NCBI GenBank assembly: GCA_035295165.1
Contig: DATGJN010000016.1
Span: forward strand, 1 to 49,581
Length of the DNA: 49,581 bases
Direction: 5' to 3'
Source of the DNA: a bacterium
Lineage (GTDB): Bacteria; Sysuimicrobiota; Sysuimicrobiia; Sysuimicrobiales; Segetimicrobiaceae
Shown here: positions 20,293-29,060 of the stretch, one piece after another
Numbering within the stretch: position 1 is the first letter of the stretch
Layout of the letters: each line of letters opens with the position of its first letter
Translations under genes and position numbers: made by a program
The notes under the pieces: model-generated
The model's input: the letters and a program-made list of their open reading frames with translations, nothing else
Told to the model about the DNA's origin: nothing
Database searches by the model: none

Positions 20293-21450
20293 ATGATCAT
20301 TTCCGCAGGCACAGTCATGGCGCCCGATCGGAACCTCAGCCCCGGCTTCGTCGCGATCGAGGACGGCCGCATCACGCGCGTCGGTGCCGGCGAGCCGCCG
20401 GGCCGCGACGCGGCGGGCGTGCTCAGGTTTCCGGACGGCACCCTGATCCCCGGGCTCATCGATCTTCAAGTCAACGGCGGCGCCGGCGTGGATTGTTCGC
20501 ACTGCGTCCTCGAAGACTATGACGTGCTCGGGCGGTACCTTGCCGGGACCGGCGTCACGGCCTACCTCCCGACGATCGTCAGCGCCCCGCTTGAGGATAT
20601 GCGCCGGGCGGCCGAGGTTGCGGCCAGCGCGGGAGCCCGGCGCAGCCAGCTGCCGCAGATCCTCGGGGTGCACCTCGAGGGGCCGTATCTCAATCCGCTG
20701 CGCCGCGGGGCCCATCGCGCCCAGGACCTCAGGCACCCGACGGTCCCGGAGGTCACCGAGACGGTGCGCCGCGTCCGCGGCGCCGTGCGCGTGATGACGC
20801 TTGCGCCGGAGCTCGAAGGCGCCGAACCCGTGGTGCGCGCGCTGGCCGCACAGGGGATCGTCGTCGCGCTGGGGCATACCGACGCGGCCTACGACGAGAT
20901 CCGAGCCGCGGCGCAGTGGGGCGCCCGGCTCGTCACCCACGTGTTCAACGCGATGCGCGGCCTGCACCACCGGGAGCCCGGCGCCGCAGGCGGCGCGCTG
21001 CTCACACGCGGGCTTGTGGTGAGCGTGATCGCCGACGGCATCCATGTCCATCCTGCGGTGCTCAACCTGATCGCGCGCACGGCGGGCACCAACCGGGTGG
21101 CGCTCGTGTCGGACGCCGTCTCCGGGGCCGGGATGGAACGGGGCAATTTCACGCTGGGCGCGCAGGCGATCGAAGTGCGGGACGGCGTGCCGCGCTTGCC
21201 CGACGGCACGCTTGCGGGGAGTGTGCTCAGAATGAGCCGGGCCGTTCGCAACTTCGCGGCTGCCGCCGAGGTGGGTCTGCGAGAAGCCGTGCAGTCGGCG
21301 ACGCTCGTGCCAGCGCGGCTCCTCGGTCTCGCGCGCAAGGGCCAGATCGTCGACGGGCACGACGCCGATCTGGTCGTGTTCGATCGCGAAGGCGGCGTGG
21401 CGCTGACGCTCGTCGCGGGGCAAGTCGCCTATCTCCGCCACGGCGCATAG
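20293..21450 (+). CDS. nagA: N-acetylglucosamine-6-phosphate deacetylase
   Basis: A 385-residue amidohydrolase that converts GlcNAc-6-P to GlcN-6-P and acetate. Motifs: LIPGLIDLQVNGG, GVHLEGPYLNPLRRGAH (metal-site Glu), ALGHTDA, THVFNAMRGLHHREPG, ADGIHVHP and VSDAVSGAG with the catalytic Asp. Length equals family norms. It is transcribed away from the minus-strand recycling operon and finishes its pathway: MurQ and NanE both make its substrate. No nagB deaminase is in the window, so GlcN-6-P may go to cell wall synthesis. The ribosome binding site is weak. Confidence 0.94.
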   Translation: MIISAGTVMAPDRNLSPGFVAIEDGRITRVGAGEPPGRDAAGVLRFPDGTLIPGLIDLQVNGGAGVDCSHCVLEDYDVLGRYLAGTGVTAYLPTIVSAPLEDMRRAAEVAASAGARRSQLPQILGVHLEGPYLNPLRRGAHRAQDLRHPTVPEVTETVRRVRGAVRVMTLAPELEGAEPVVRALAAQGIVVALGHTDAAYDEIRAAAQWGARLVTHVFNAMRGLHHREPGAAGGALLTRGLVVSVIADGIHVHPAVLNLIARTAGTNRVALVSDAVSGAGMERGNFTLGAQAIEVRDGVPRLPDGTLAGSVLRMSRAVRNFAAAAEVGLREAVQSATLVPARLLGLARKGQIVDGHDADLVVFDREGGVALTLVAGQVAYLRHGA

Positions 21451-21524: not shown

Positions 21525-21553
21525 TTGACAACCTACGCCAATTCTGGTACACA
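21525..21553 (+). promoter_or_regulatory. Promoter of gltB leader
   Basis: A perfect TTGACA at 21525-21530, a 17-base spacer and TACACA at 21548-21553 (3 of 6, so the -10 is weak). It stands about 70 bp before the riboswitch-like leader and is the only good -35 in the 371-bp space between nagA and gltB. Confidence 0.55.
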
Positions 21554-21624
21554 CAGTTAAATAACCGATCAGCATCATCGGCACGGCGGACCCGTTGTTT
21601 CGTGCTCGGCGACGGGGAGGGAGT

Positions 21625-21726
21625 GTGCCTAGGGATCCGCGGCCCCCAGGAGGGGTCGGACCGGACCGAGCGGCACAGGCGGCCTAAAGGGCGCTACACC
21701 ATCGGGACAAAAGCCCGAGGGAGAGG
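21625..21726 (+). promoter_or_regulatory. ykkC-family riboswitch aptamer, probably ppGpp type
   Basis: The leader contains, in order, the conserved blocks of the ykkC RNA family: CTAGGGATCCGC (21629-21640), CCGGACCGAGCGGC (21661-21674), ACACC (21696-21700) and GGGACAAAAGCCCG (21704-21717). GTGCC (21625-21629) and GGCAC (21672-21676) pair to close the first stem. TCGGG (21702-21706) pairs with CCCGA (21714-21718) in the 3' stem. An intervening GC-rich hairpin with a TAAA loop lies at 21679-21694. Family subtypes sense guanidine, ppGpp, PRPP or nucleoside diphosphates. The gene controlled is glutamate synthase, an amino acid biosynthesis gene of the type linked to ppGpp. The subtype is therefore inferred from context; the family is read from sequence. 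Confidence 0.8.
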
Positions 21727-21766
21727 TTCCTCTCACACAGGATCGCTCCCTCGGGCTTTTGCTTTT
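21708..21766 (+). terminator. Intrinsic terminator overlapping the aptamer
   Basis: A perfect 16-bp stem (21708-21723 with 21746-21761) with a 22-base loop, ending in a T-rich run TTTTGCTTTT. Its 5' arm is the AAAAGCCCGAGGGAG that also belongs to the aptamer's 3' conserved block, so aptamer folding and terminator folding exclude each other. This predicts an ON switch: ligand binding lets transcription proceed into gltB, whose ATG is 56 bases further on behind a GAGGGGG site. Confidence 0.85.
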
Positions 21767-21821
21767 GGCGCGGCGGAGCGACGGTCCGGCGGGACGGGTA
21801 TCTCGCGCGAGGGGGACCACG

Positions 21822-24800
21822 ATGTCCGGCCTCTATGACCGGAGGTTTGAACACGATGCATGCGGCGTCGGGTTCGTGGCGACGACGGGCGGCCGCAGTC
21901 ACGCGCCCCTCGCGCACGCATTGGACGCGCTCGCGAACCTGGCGCACCGCGGCGCGGTCTCTGCGGACGGCAAGACGGGGGACGGCGCCGGGGTGCTCAC
22001 CCAGATTCCCCATCGGTTGCTCGCGCCCGACCTGCAGCGACTCTCGGTGCGCGTGCCCCGACACAGCGACCTGGGGCTTGCGATGGTGTTCCTCCCCCGC
22101 GACAACCGGACGCGCGGGCGCGCCCGCGCAATCGTTGAGGACGCGATCACCCGCGAGGGGCTGGTGTTCTTCGGGTGGCGGCAGGTGCCGGTCGCCTCGG
22201 CGGCGCTCGGCCGAGATGCGCTCCTCACCCGGCCCGAGATCGAGCAGGCGCTGGTCGGCCGGCCCGATCCGCTCGGCGCGGACGAGTTCGAGCGGACGCT
22301 GTACCTGGCGCGGAAAGTCATCGAGCGGCGGCTCCTCGAGGAGCGCATCGCGGAGTGTTCGGTGCCGTCGTGCTCGCACCGGACCGTCGTGTACAAAGGC
22401 CTCTGCGTCGCCCCGCAACTCCCGCGCTTCTACGCGGACCTGCGCGACCCGGCGTTTGAGACGGCGCTCGCACTGTTCCATCAACGGTACAGTACGAACA
22501 CATTCCCGAGTTGGCCGCTCGCCCAGCCGTTCCGGTTGCTGGCCCACAACGGAGAGATCAACACGTTGTGGGGCAACGTCAACTGGACGCGCGCCCGCGA
22601 GGCCCACCTGCGCTCCCCGTTCTGGCGGGAGCGCATGCGAGACCTGACCCCGGTGATCCAGGCGGACGGCAGCGACAGCGCGATGCTGGACAACGTACTG
22701 GAACTCCTCGTGCAGTCCGGCCGCGACCCCCTGCATGCGATGATGACGCTCGTCCCCGAGGCCTCGGAGGGGGCGACGGAGATGGCGCCCGAGCTCCGCG
22801 CGTTCTATGAGTTTCACGCTGGTCTCTCGGAGCCGTGGGACGGGCCCGCGGCCCTCGCGTTCTCGGATGGCCGCGTGGCCGCGGCGGCGCTGGACCGCAA
22901 CGGACTGCGCCCGGCGCGGTACATGATCACGGAGGACGGGTTAGTGGTCGTCGCGAGCGAGGCTGGCGTGCTCGATCTCGACCCCAGCCGGATCGTGGAA
23001 AAGGGTCGGCTGGGCCCCGGTCGGGTGATCGCCGTCGATACCGTGGCGGGCCGGATTCTCAACGACGAGACGATCAAGCGCGAGGTCGCCGGCCGTCGGC
23101 CATATGCCGCGTGGCTCGCTGCGGGCCGGACCCGCGTGCCTTCGGACACCGCGCCCCCCGCGGTCGACTCCCCCTCGTTGGCGCGGCGGCTCGTTGCGTT
23201 CGGTTACTCGGACGAGGAGTTCAAGCGCATTCACACACCGATGTTCATGGAGGCGAAGGACCCGGTTGGGTCGATGGGTGACGATACGCCGCTTGCGGTG
23301 CTGTCGTCGCGCCCGCGTCTACTCTACGCCTATCTGAAGCAGCGGTTTGCCCAGGTGACGAATCCGCCGATCGATTCCCTGCGCGAACGCCTCGTGATGT
23401 CGCTCGTGACCCTGCTCGGCGCCCGCGGCAACCTGCTGGAGGAGGCACCCGAGCACGCGCGGCTCGTCGAGTTGCGCTCTCCGGTGATCACCGCAGTCGA
23501 GCTCGGGTCTCTCGCATCGCTCCCCGAGGAGACGCTGCGTGTGCGCACCCTGTCGGCGCGATTCGCGGCCGCGGGCGGCGCGGACGGGCTCGAGCGCGCC
23601 CTCGTGCAGCTGTGCGACGAGGCGGCGTACCAGGTCGAGGAGGGCGCGACGCTCCTCGTCATCTCCGACCGCGGAATCGATGCGGCGCACGCGCCGATCC
23701 CGATGGTGCTCGCCGTCGGCGCCGTGCACCAGTCGTTGATCCGCCGCGGGCGACGCATGCGCGTGAGCCTCGTGGCGGAGACCGGCGAGGCGCGGGACGT
23801 CCACCACACGGCGGTGCTCATTGGCTACGGCGCGAGCGCGGTCTGCCCGTACCTCGCACACGAGATGATCGTGGAGGAGGCGCGCCGGGCAGGCGCGGAT
23901 CCCGCGGCGTGGCTGGCCAACCACCGCAAGGCGATCGAAGCGGGGCTGCTCAAGATCATGTCCAAGATGGGCATCTCCACGGTGTCGAGCTACCACGGCG
24001 CCCAGATCTTCGAGGCCGTGGGACTGGACACAGCACTCGTGGAGTTTGCGCTGACGGGGACACCGTCCCGGCTCGGCGGCATCGGGCTCGCCGAGATCTC
24101 CGAGGACGTGCTGCTGCGTCACCGCCGCGCGTTTGGCGACGACGGCGTGCCTGCGTTGGACGACCCCGGGTTGTTCCGGTTCCGCAAGGACGGGGAGTAC
24201 CATGCGTTCCACCCGAACGTCCTGCGGACGCTGCACCGGCTCGCGCTCCAGGGCGGCGACGAAGAATATCTCGCGTACGCGTGGGAGGTGACGCACCGGC
24301 CGCCGACCGCGCTGCGCGATCTCCTCGAGTTCCACGGCGGCGCCCCGATCCCGGTGGAGGGTGTGGAGCCGGCCGCCGAGATCGCCCGACGGTTCGTCGT
24401 CTCGTCGATGTCGCACGGATCGCTCAGCAAGGAAGCGCACGAAACGCTCGCGATCGCGATGAACCGCCTGGGCGCGAAGAGCAGCAGCGGGGAGGGCGGG
24501 GAAGACCCCGATCGATTCGTGCGGCGGCCGAACGGGGACTGGCCGAACTCGGCGGTGAAGCAGGTGGCTTCGGGGCGGTTCGGCGTCACCGCGTCGTACC
24601 TGAACGCGGCCCAGGAACTCGAGATCAAGATGGCCCAGGGGAGCAAACCCGGCGAGGGCGGTCAGATCCCCGGGGCCAAGGTCTCCGCGGAGATCGCGCG
24701 GATCCGGCACACGCAGCCGGGCATCGCCCTGATCTCTCCGCCGCCGCATCACGACATCTACAGCATCGAGGATCTCGCGCAGCTGATCTACGATCTGAAA

Positions 24801-26279
24801 CAGGGCAATCCGCGGGCCCGCGTGGCGGTGAAGCTCGTCAGCGAGGCGGGCGTCGGCACGATCGCCGCGGGCGTAGCCAAGGCGTACGCGGACACGGTGC
24901 ACATCGCCGGCGCGGACGGCGGCACCGGTGCGTCGCCGCTGGACTCGATCAAGAACGCGGGGGTGCCGTGGGAGCTCGGGCTCGCGGAGACCCAGCAGAC
25001 GCTCGTCCGCAACAACCTCCGCGGCCGGGTGAAGATCCGGGTCGACGGGGGATTGAAAGTGGCGCGCGACGTGCTGATCGCGGCGCTGCTGGGGGGCGAG
25101 GAGTTCGGATTTGCGAGCGCGGCGGTCGTCGCACTCGGGTGCGTGATGGCCCGCCAGTGCCACCTCAACACGTGCCCCGTCGGGATCGCCACCCAGCGGG
25201 ATGATCTGCGGGCTAAATTCCCCGGGACGCCGGAGCGCGTGGTCCACTTCTTCCTCGCGATCGCCGAGGACCTCCGCCGGTTGCTCGCCCAACTCGGCGC
25301 GCGGGGCGTGGACGAGATCGTCGGCCGTCAGGACATGCTGCGGGTGCGGTCGGACATTCCCGTGCCTCGCGCCCGCCGGCTCGCGCTCGACGCGCTGCTC
25401 GCCGATCCGGATCCGTCGGGCACACGTGTCCGGCGCCACCAGCAGGAGCGGAACGACCGGCCGGGCGAGCCGTACGACGACGCGATTTTGATCCAGATCG
25501 GGGAGGATCTGGCCGCGGGCCAGCGCGTGGACCGGACGTTTGAGATCCGCAACGTGCACCGGACCGCCGGCGCCCGCATCGCGTCGGCGATCGCGCGCCG
25601 CCACGGGGACGCGGGGCTTCCGGACGAGACCATCACGCTGCGGTTCGTGGGGAGCGCCGGCCAGTCGTTCGGGGCGTGGTGCGTGGGCGGGATGCGGCTC
25701 GCGCTCTACGGCGAGGCGAACGACTACGTCGGCAAGGGAATGGCCGGGGGAGAGATCGCGATCCGTCCGCCCGGCGTGCTGCTCGCGCGATCCCACCGGC
25801 ACGTGATCATGGGGAACACCGTGCTCTATGGAGCGACCGGAGGCCGCCTGTTCGCCGCCGGCCGGGCCGGCGAGCGGTTCGCGGTCCGCAACAGCGGGAC
25901 CGTCGCGGTGGTCGAGGGCGTCGGAGATCACGCCTGTGAGTACATGACCGGCGGCGTCGTCGTGGTGTTGGGGGAAACCGGACGCAACTTCGGCGCCGGG
26001 ATGACCGGTGGCTGCGCGTACGTCCTCGACGAGCGCGGAACGCTCGAGCACCGCCACAACCCCGGTCTCGTCGGCCTTGCGCGCGTGTCCGACCCGGACG
26101 ACGTGCGGACGCTGCGCCGATGGGTCGAGGCACACCGGCATGCGACCGGCAGCGAGCGCGCCCGCGAGGTACTCGAGGACTGGGACCGATGGCTGCCGCT
26201 GTTTTGGAAGGTCGCGCCGCGGGCCCTTCCCACAGCGGACGTGGTCGCGACCCCGGTGCCCTCGCCGGAACGGGCGTAG
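21822..26279 (+). CDS. gltB: Glutamate synthase large subunit
   Basis: A 1485-residue GOGAT large chain, near the usual 1500. It makes two glutamates from glutamine and 2-oxoglutarate. The N-terminal glutaminase domain begins SGLYDRRFEHDACGVGF; Cys14 becomes the N-terminal nucleophile after a 13-residue propeptide is removed. The central and FMN domains span roughly residues 450-1190, with SSSGEGGEDPDRF, KPGEGGQIPG and GADGGTGASPLDSIKNAG. The 3Fe-4S cluster cysteines are in LGCVMARQCHLNTCPVG (C-x5-C-x4-C). The C-terminal domain has the repeated Gly pattern of the GXGXG helix (GNTVLYGATGGRLFAAGRAG). The start at 21822 fits the propeptide; an upstream in-frame ATG at 21759 lies inside the terminator and is rejected. 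No gltD small subunit follows. Confidence 0.96.
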   Translation: MSGLYDRRFEHDACGVGFVATTGGRSHAPLAHALDALANLAHRGAVSADGKTGDGAGVLTQIPHRLLAPDLQRLSVRVPRHSDLGLAMVFLPRDNRTRGRARAIVEDAITREGLVFFGWRQVPVASAALGRDALLTRPEIEQALVGRPDPLGADEFERTLYLARKVIERRLLEERIAECSVPSCSHRTVVYKGLCVAPQLPRFYADLRDPAFETALALFHQRYSTNTFPSWPLAQPFRLLAHNGEINTLWGNVNWTRAREAHLRSPFWRERMRDLTPVIQADGSDSAMLDNVLELLVQSGRDPLHAMMTLVPEASEGATEMAPELRAFYEFHAGLSEPWDGPAALAFSDGRVAAAALDRNGLRPARYMITEDGLVVVASEAGVLDLDPSRIVEKGRLGPGRVIAVDTVAGRILNDETIKREVAGRRPYAAWLAAGRTRVPSDTAPPAVDSPSLARRLVAFGYSDEEFKRIHTPMFMEAKDPVGSMGDDTPLAVLSSRPRLLYAYLKQRFAQVTNPPIDSLRERLVMSLVTLLGARGNLLEEAPEHARLVELRSPVITAVELGSLASLPEETLRVRTLSARFAAAGGADGLERALVQLCDEAAYQVEEGATLLVISDRGIDAAHAPIPMVLAVGAVHQSLIRRGRRMRVSLVAETGEARDVHHTAVLIGYGASAVCPYLAHEMIVEEARRAGADPAAWLANHRKAIEAGLLKIMSKMGISTVSSYHGAQIFEAVGLDTALVEFALTGTPSRLGGIGLAEISEDVLLRHRRAFGDDGVPALDDPGLFRFRKDGEYHAFHPNVLRTLHRLALQGGDEEYLAYAWEVTHRPPTALRDLLEFHGGAPIPVEGVEPAAEIARRFVVSSMSHGSLSKEAHETLAIAMNRLGAKSSSGEGGEDPDRFVRRPNGDWPNSAVKQVASGRFGVTASYLNAAQELEIKMAQGSKPGEGGQIPGAKVSAEIARIRHTQPGIALISPPPHHDIYSIEDLAQLIYDLKQGNPRARVAVKLVSEAGVGTIAAGVAKAYADTVHIAGADGGTGASPLDSIKNAGVPWELGLAETQQTLVRNNLRGRVKIRVDGGLKVARDVLIAALLGGEEFGFASAAVVALGCVMARQCHLNTCPVGIATQRDDLRAKFPGTPERVVHFFLAIAEDLRRLLAQLGARGVDEIVGRQDMLRVRSDIPVPRARRLALDALLADPDPSGTRVRRHQQERNDRPGEPYDDAILIQIGEDLAAGQRVDRTFEIRNVHRTAGARIASAIARRHGDAGLPDETITLRFVGSAGQSFGAWCVGGMRLALYGEANDYVGKGMAGGEIAIRPPGVLLARSHRHVIMGNTVLYGATGGRLFAAGRAGERFAVRNSGTVAVVEGVGDHACEYMTGGVVVVLGETGRNFGAGMTGGCAYVLDERGTLEHRHNPGLVGLARVSDPDDVRTLRRWVEAHRHATGSERAREVLEDWDRWLPLFWKVAPRALPTADVVATPVPSPERA

Positions 26280-27410: not shown

Positions 27411-29060
27411 GTGACGGAGACACCGGGACAGCCTCTCGACCCGCCGCCCACCGCGTCGGACGCCGGCCCGGTGCTTGCCGGGCGTTTCGCGCTCGGGAAG
27501 CCGCTCGGCAGCGGCGGCATGGCGACGGTGTACCAGGCGTGGGATCAGGCACGGGGGGTGGCGTGCGCGGTCAAGGTGCTCTCCGATTCTCTCTCGCGCG
27601 ACGAGGAGTTCCGCACGCGATTCAGCCGCGAGGCCGAGGCGGTGATGAGCCTGGCCCATGAGCGGATTGTCGTGGTCTACGGATATGGCGACGACGGGCC
27701 GCGTCAGTACATCGCCATGGAGTACGTGCCCGGCGGCACCGTGCGGGAGATGCTCGTGCGCCGCGGTCCGCTCCCGGAGGCGGAGGCGCTCCGGATCGCC
27801 GCCGAAGTCGCCGACGCGCTCGCGTATGCTCACGGGCGCGGCTTCGTCCACCGGGACGTGAAACCACACAACATTCTGCTCACCGCGGACGGGCACGTCA
27901 AGGTCGCGGACTTCGGCATCGCCCGCACGCTCGACGGCACGAAGCTCACGCGCACCGGCAGTCTCGTGGGGTCGGCCCACTACATCGCGCCCGAACAGGC
28001 TCGGGGCGACCCCGCCGGCCCGGCGGCGGATCAGTATGCGCTTGGGGTGGTGCTGTTCGAGTTGCTCGCCGGCCGCGTCCCCTTCGACGGTGCGGCGCCC
28101 GTCGCGGTCGCGCTTCGGCACCTACACGACCCCGTCCCCGACCTGGCCGCGATTCGACCCGGCGTCTCCCCGGCAACGCTGGCGATCGTTTGCCGGCTGC
28201 TGGCGAAGTCGCCGGAGGACCGATATCCGTCTGCCGAGGCCGCGGCCGAGGCCCTGCGGACGGCGTCCGACGGGGGCGCCACGGCCGTCCTGCCCGCGTC
28301 GCGCGACGCGGAGGGCTCCGCGGGCGATGCGAGCTCCACGGCGCGGGTTGCGACCGCGCCGCCGTCGAACGAGACGATCCAGTTGCCGCCGCCCGCCGAG
28401 GCTCGGCCAGTGCACTCGGCCCTGACGGACACCGCGGTCCGGGCCGAGGCGGCGCAGGAGGCGCGGCGCGCCGCCGCACGGCGGCGCGTCGGGACGGCGG
28501 TGGTGTGGATGCGGGCGGCGGTCATTGTCCTCGCCGCCGCCGGCGCTATCGCGCTGGCCACCACCGGCTATCGAGGCGCGTGGCTCGCGGCCCACGCGAC
28601 CGTGCCCGCGTTGATCGGGCGCACCGTGCAGGACGCGGCGCGCGAAGTGGTCCCGCTGCAGCTCGGCGTGATCGTGACGGCGCAGCGCCAGGACGCGCAC
28701 CTGCCGGTTGGCGTGATCGTCGCGCAGGATCCTCCCGCCGGGCGCGAGGTCCTTAAGGGCGTGGTGCTTCAGCTGACAGTCAGCCAGGGATCAGGGATCG
28801 TGCCGGATCTGAACGGGCTCCCCGTGTCCGGGGCGGCGCGCTTGCTGGAAGGAGCCGGGCTCCGGCTGGGCGCGGTGAGCTACACGCGCGATGATCAATT
28901 TGCTGCCGGCGATGTGATCCACCAGTTCCAGTCTGCCGGCACGCACCTCGACCCCAACGGTGCGGTGGACGTGCTCGTGAGTGCCGGCGCACCCCAAACG
29001 GGTCCGAACACGCCGCCCGGGGTGCCGACGTTGGAAACCGGCAGCAACGACAATAAGTAA
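27411..29060 (+). CDS. PASTA-domain Ser/Thr protein kinase
   Basis: A 549-residue membrane kinase of the PknB/PrkC class. The kinase domain (about 25-290) has the Gly loop GSGGMATVY, Lys55 in CAVKVL, HRDVKPHN (Asp149), VADFGIAR (Asp167) and an activation segment with TRTGSLVGSAHYIAPEQ. A Pro/Ala/Thr-rich linker follows, then one transmembrane helix at about 366-386 (WMRAAVIVLAAAGAIALATT) and two extracellular PASTA repeats (VPALIGRTVQDAAREV and VPDLNGLPVSGAARLLE begin them) that sense peptidoglycan fragments. The start is GTG at 27411 with only a weak GAGG upstream. It leads a tight operon with an NFU_N protein and a zincin. No PP2C phosphatase is adjacent. Confidence 0.92.
   Translation: MTETPGQPLDPPPTASDAGPVLAGRFALGKPLGSGGMATVYQAWDQARGVACAVKVLSDSLSRDEEFRTRFSREAEAVMSLAHERIVVVYGYGDDGPRQYIAMEYVPGGTVREMLVRRGPLPEAEALRIAAEVADALAYAHGRGFVHRDVKPHNILLTADGHVKVADFGIARTLDGTKLTRTGSLVGSAHYIAPEQARGDPAGPAADQYALGVVLFELLAGRVPFDGAAPVAVALRHLHDPVPDLAAIRPGVSPATLAIVCRLLAKSPEDRYPSAEAAAEALRTASDGGATAVLPASRDAEGSAGDASSTARVATAPPSNETIQLPPPAEARPVHSALTDTAVRAEAAQEARRAAARRRVGTAVVWMRAAVIVLAAAGAIALATTGYRGAWLAAHATVPALIGRTVQDAAREVVPLQLGVIVTAQRQDAHLPVGVIVAQDPPAGREVLKGVVLQLTVSQGSGIVPDLNGLPVSGAARLLEGAGLRLGAVSYTRDDQFAAGDVIHQFQSAGTHLDPNGAVDVLVSAGAPQTGPNTPPGVPTLETGSNDNK

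Follow-up and report, generated by a model that had tools for sequence, protein, structure and literature searches.

The leader of gltB, the gene for the large subunit of glutamate synthase, very probably carries a ykkC riboswitch of subtype 2a, the ppGpp class, in the window analysed here (the whole stretch of 49,581 nucleotides). On the evidence of the sequence, this riboswitch is predicted to turn gltB on by transcription antitermination. The leader has the ykkC aptamer with its conserved helices, a strand that the aptamer shares with a terminator, and the bases that are diagnostic of the subtype, and the genome encodes a Rel homologue. The ligand, the direction of the switch and its physiological role would then be those of the ppGpp class. 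A ppGpp riboswitch, ykkC subtype 2a, was reportedly described by Sherlock et al. in PNAS in 2018.

The gltB leader and its aptamer

The gltB gene (21822-26279, + strand) encodes a protein of 1485 amino acids that was identified with Pfam and NCBIfam. The reading frame from the ATG at 21822 contains all four Pfam domains and matches NCBIfam NF008730 at 1758 bits, and its product is the only full-length GltB of the genome. The gene starts about 100 bases 3' of the aptamer, and AGGGGG at 21810-21815 is its likely ribosome binding site. Upstream of the aptamer, a putative promoter (21525-21553, + strand) was recognized from its sequence, with TTGACA at 21525-21530, a 17-nt spacer and TACACA at 21548-21553; the leader would thus start near 21560. 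Many gltB aptamers in the phylum are preceded by comparable TTGACA-17-TAnnnn pairs. An amidohydrolase gene (20293-21450) ends some 75 bases upstream of this putative promoter, and a gene for a Ser/Thr kinase with PASTA domains (27411-29060) lies downstream of gltB.

The first-pass annotation had placed the leader in the ykkC family, from conserved blocks occurring in order, and had proposed a comparison with Rfam covariance models. All of the blocks are present in that order (CUAGGGAUCCG, GGACCGAGCGG, CUACACC and GGGACAAAAGCCCGAGGG). The comparison located the aptamer core at 21618-21725 (+ strand), where model positions 1-107 of RF00442 (Guanidine-I), the full model, match with 52.5 bits and an E-value of 1.2e-8. 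Since the curated gathering score of RF00442 is 63 bits, a default Rfam scan of the window gives no match, and the leader surfaces only when an E-value threshold is applied. RF00442 is the only significant family, with no match of the leader to a separate ppGpp or PRPP family in Rfam 15. The E-value together with the covariation described below nevertheless makes the ykkC homology of the leader clear. A search of the whole 4.79-Mb genome with RF00442 recovered the leader (52.5 bits, E-value 3.1e-8) as the only such RNA. A plasmid search with the leader as query gave no match. Similarly, no match was found at 12 GltB-bearing loci of other organisms at the gathering threshold, a result that is uninformative because the window itself falls under that cut-off.

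When 21611-21739 was folded unguided, the ykkC architecture was obtained, with P0 (8 bp), P1 (6 bp), P1a/b, P2 and P3. The fold has an energy of -59.6 kcal/mol (z -2.4), a stability that was equalled in 3 of 200 shuffles. The 5' strand of P0 (GGGAGGGA; 21615-21622, + strand) is supported by the fold and by covariation, and the equivalents of A5 and G6, assigned from the contacts in PMC6031431, are A21622 and G21623. The P1/P1a/P1b arm (21624-21677, + strand) carries CUAGGGAUCCG and GGACCGAGCGG and is closed by P1, in which 21624-21629 pair with 21672-21677. The P2 hairpin (21678-21695, + strand), again supported by fold and covariation, is followed by the equivalents of C75-A76-C77-C78 (21697-21700) and by P3, which together occupy 21697-21723 (+ strand) according to alignment and covariation. 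The AGG that corresponds to A103-G104-G105 and the 3' strand of P0 (UUCCUCUC, 21727-21734) were placed by alignment and fold at 21724-21734 (+ strand), and all of this segment lies within the loop of the terminator.

Conservation in the phylum

Among 43 genomes of the window's phylum that were searched for RF00442-type RNAs, 33 contained a total of 44. Clustering of the downstream proteins assigned gltB to 23 of these RNAs, ilvB to 18 and a leuA-like gene to two, with one unassigned. Among the congeners is Centralia_MAG_47 (a Bacillota MAG), with a GltB that is 83% identical. Most of these RNAs (36 of 44) score under the Rfam cut-off, so that the subtype 2 RNAs of this lineage are largely missed by default annotation; if reported via RF00442, they would bear the wrong ligand name. 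The lowest score in the set, 42.8 bits, belongs to a degenerate-looking gltB aptamer (L124, G005:C19:35143-35297) with an insertion of about 45 nt in the P2 region.

The proposed structure was compared with 22 gltB aptamers, which gave 88.5% paired cells and compensatory changes in 52 cells, against 19.8 in shuffles. The larger set of 50 aptamers comprised the gltB, ilvB and leuA-like RNAs with eight ilvE/ilvD RNAs of another class, and gave 90.1% paired cells and 167 compensatory cells, against 60 in shuffles. Within this set, P3 changes from G-C to A-U in 18 RNAs, and double changes are found at six of the eight pairs of P0. The covariation signal was lost in a control in which the partner strand was slid by one to three columns.

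Assignment to a subtype

Three published distinctions separate the relevant subtypes (PMC6031431). Guanidine-I RNAs have A46 where subtypes 2a and 2b have a pyrimidine (position 49), and helix P0, absent from guanidine-I, is added in subtypes 2a and 2b. At position 96, PRPP aptamers have G and ppGpp aptamers have A, C, U or no base; the G96A change alone is enough to convert a PRPP aptamer to ppGpp, a switch of about 40,000-fold in which PRPP binding is abolished (PMC6031431). This numbering was mapped onto the window by the present authors from conserved motifs. The reference ykkC RNAs came from a different bacterial class and were labelled by their downstream genes: purine permease, purB, BMP/PnrA and adenine deaminase genes for the PRPP class (n = 54), ilvE and ilvD for the ppGpp class (n = 19) and SMR exporters for the guanidine class (n = 10).

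Taken by the name of its sole significant Rfam family, the leader would be a guanidine-I riboswitch, and the core P1-P3 blocks are indeed shared with that subtype. This reading is hardly credible, given an RF00442 score below the curated cut-off and a target, gltB, that is not a guanidine gene. The A46/C49 site in the P1/P1a/P1b arm is C21671, a pyrimidine as in subtype 2a and an invariant C in the alignment of 22 gltB RNAs, whereas A stands at this guanidine-contacting position in all ten SMR-gene RNAs. The window also has the P0 that guanidine-I lacks, formed as 8 pairs in the fold by the two ends of the aptamer. In addition, SMR-gene RNAs reach 29-37 bits with a covariance model of the ilvE/ilvD RNAs, against 73.4 bits for the window. 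An automatic pattern count had placed A at position 49 in four gltB RNAs; this count was taken to be an artefact, the alignment having C in 22 of 22 rows.

The choice between subtypes 2a and 2b turns on position 96, which is A21718 in the P3 region of the window and not the G of PRPP aptamers. Counted as the second base after the CCC of P3, this position carries A in the window and in every one of the 43 phylum RNAs that were assigned, and G in all 54 purine-gene RNAs. Among the 19 ilvE/ilvD RNAs it is A in 15; in the remaining four the tail is shorter by one base. A PRPP riboswitch on gltB, linking glutamate synthesis to the supply of purine precursors, would account for the common scaffold, P0 and C49, for a P3 tail of 7 nt like that of many PRPP RNAs, and for a score of 82.4 bits with the purine-gene model. 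It is nonetheless very improbable: the window has A at the one site where the purine-gene RNAs are uniformly G and where G96A abolishes PRPP binding (PMC6031431), its P0 tail is UUCC and not UUUC, and no purine gene was assigned downstream of the phylum RNAs. The 82.4 bits are not evidence for PRPP, because true ilvE/ilvD RNAs reach 80-97 bits with the same model. Whole-aptamer covariance models of the ilvE/ilvD and purine-gene RNAs were accordingly dropped as a means of assigning subtype, as they do not discriminate across lineages; a first purine-gene model (R2) had been discarded for its implausible automatic structure.

The ppGpp subtype suggested by the first-pass annotation is thus supported by the sequence evidence: the A46/C49 site is C, the G96 site is A, and P0 has 8 bp. 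The equivalent of C75 is C21697 in CUACACC, which is invariant in the alignment and would pair with the guanine of ppGpp. The window has equivalents of all the ligand-contacting bases A5, G6, G48, C75, A76, C77, A103, G104 and G105. The genes 3' of the aptamer, gltB in the window and ilvB and leuA-like genes in its relatives, are also amino acid synthesis genes.

The terminator and the predicted switch

An intrinsic terminator was located at 21708-21766 (+ strand), in which 21708-21723 pair with 21746-21761 around a 22-nt loop, followed by CUUUU. The stem is a perfect one of exactly 16 bp, as described earlier, and when the downstream region was shuffled 200 times, no stem of this length arose. 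The alternative hairpin within 21700-21764 has an energy of -38 kcal/mol (z -6.1), and none of 200 shuffles was equally stable. The 3' strand of P3 (21714-21720) lies entirely within the 5' arm, and this reuse makes the aptamer and the terminator mutually exclusive, in agreement with the first description. The U-tract is interrupted, not clean: a run of four U belongs to the 3' arm of the terminator and is followed by GCUUUU. The terminator was not flagged by a strict terminator scan. The remaining gltB leaders of the phylum show the same overlap of P3 and terminator. Most of their stems measure 10-16 bp, where shuffles give about 6; in a few, the longest uninterrupted run is only 7-9 pairs. 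Two gltB leaders from another family of the phylum (L113 and L116) have a terminator loop of 42-61 nt with an extra hairpin of the UCCGGAAGG...CCUUCCGG type.

An ON action on gltB, which had already been proposed, is suggested by this anatomy and by the published behaviour of the ppGpp class, an ON switch (PMC6031431, PMC10112252, PMC7266159). Without ligand, the downstream CUCCCUCGGGCUUUUG would capture the 3' strand of P3 to form the 16-bp terminator, and transcription would halt about 55 bases before gltB. The genome encodes a single Rel homologue (801 aa), so the ppGpp signal is probably available. Upon amino acid starvation this enzyme would raise ppGpp (or pppGpp), which would bind the P0/P3 pocket with its guanine in place of G96, paired with C75 (C21697), and with the counterparts of A5, G6, G48, C77, G104 and G105 holding its phosphates. 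The bound ligand would lock P0 and P3 and prevent the terminator, and the resulting transcription of gltB would increase glutamate synthesis.

Relation to known ykkC riboswitches

Subtype 2a, the ppGpp class, unites the RNAs associated with glutamate synthases, with branched-chain amino acid genes and with natA transporters (PMC5912903), and glutamate synthesis is among the targets of these RNAs (PMC7266159). A subtype 2a RNA before a glutamate synthase gene is therefore of a kind already published (PMC5912903, PMC7266159), and this instance is new. The window agrees with subtype 2a in its P0-P3 architecture, its C49, the lack of G at position 96, the predicted transcription ON switch and an amino acid synthesis target. 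It differs in coming from a new lineage and in a private GGAU. With subtype 2b (PMC5912903, PMC6031431) it shares the scaffold, P0, C49 and a similar tail length; the differences are A for G96 and a target in nitrogen assimilation rather than purine metabolism. From guanidine-I it is set apart by C for A at the guanidine-contacting position, the added P0 and an unrelated target gene. The window adds an uncultivated lineage whose nitrogen assimilation (gltB) and branched-chain amino acid synthesis (ilvB and leuA-like genes) appear to be wired by RNA to the stringent signal.

A substitution confined to the window

The CUAG of the window is followed by GGAU (21633-21636, with A21635), whereas GGUU is found in 126 of the 129 RNAs compared. 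The GGUU of CUAGGGUUCCG is otherwise near-invariant; GGAU occurs in the window alone, one RNA of the 129, and the congeners G026 and G027 have GGUU. The change could matter for affinity, or it could be an assembly error. On one reading, the copy in the window would be impaired or altered, the U-to-A change lowering affinity or shifting ligand preference so that the leader mostly terminates. The rarity of GGAU would fit such a reading, as would its place in P1a, into which the P3 loop docks in the published fold (PMC6031431). An impaired copy is nevertheless unlikely: A21635 is unpaired in the model, the pairs of P0, P1, P2, P3 and the terminator are all kept, no ligand-contacting base named in PMC6031431 is missing, and a single error in a draft genome would have the same appearance.

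The window also departs from known subtype 2a RNAs in its P3 tail, which is CCC-GA-GGG where the ilvE RNAs have ACCC-AA-GCGG. That the private GGAU and this tail mark a ykkC branch with a ligand preference unlike that of the characterized ppGpp switches is quite improbable. The CCC-GA-GGG tail itself is found lineage-wide in the window's phylum.
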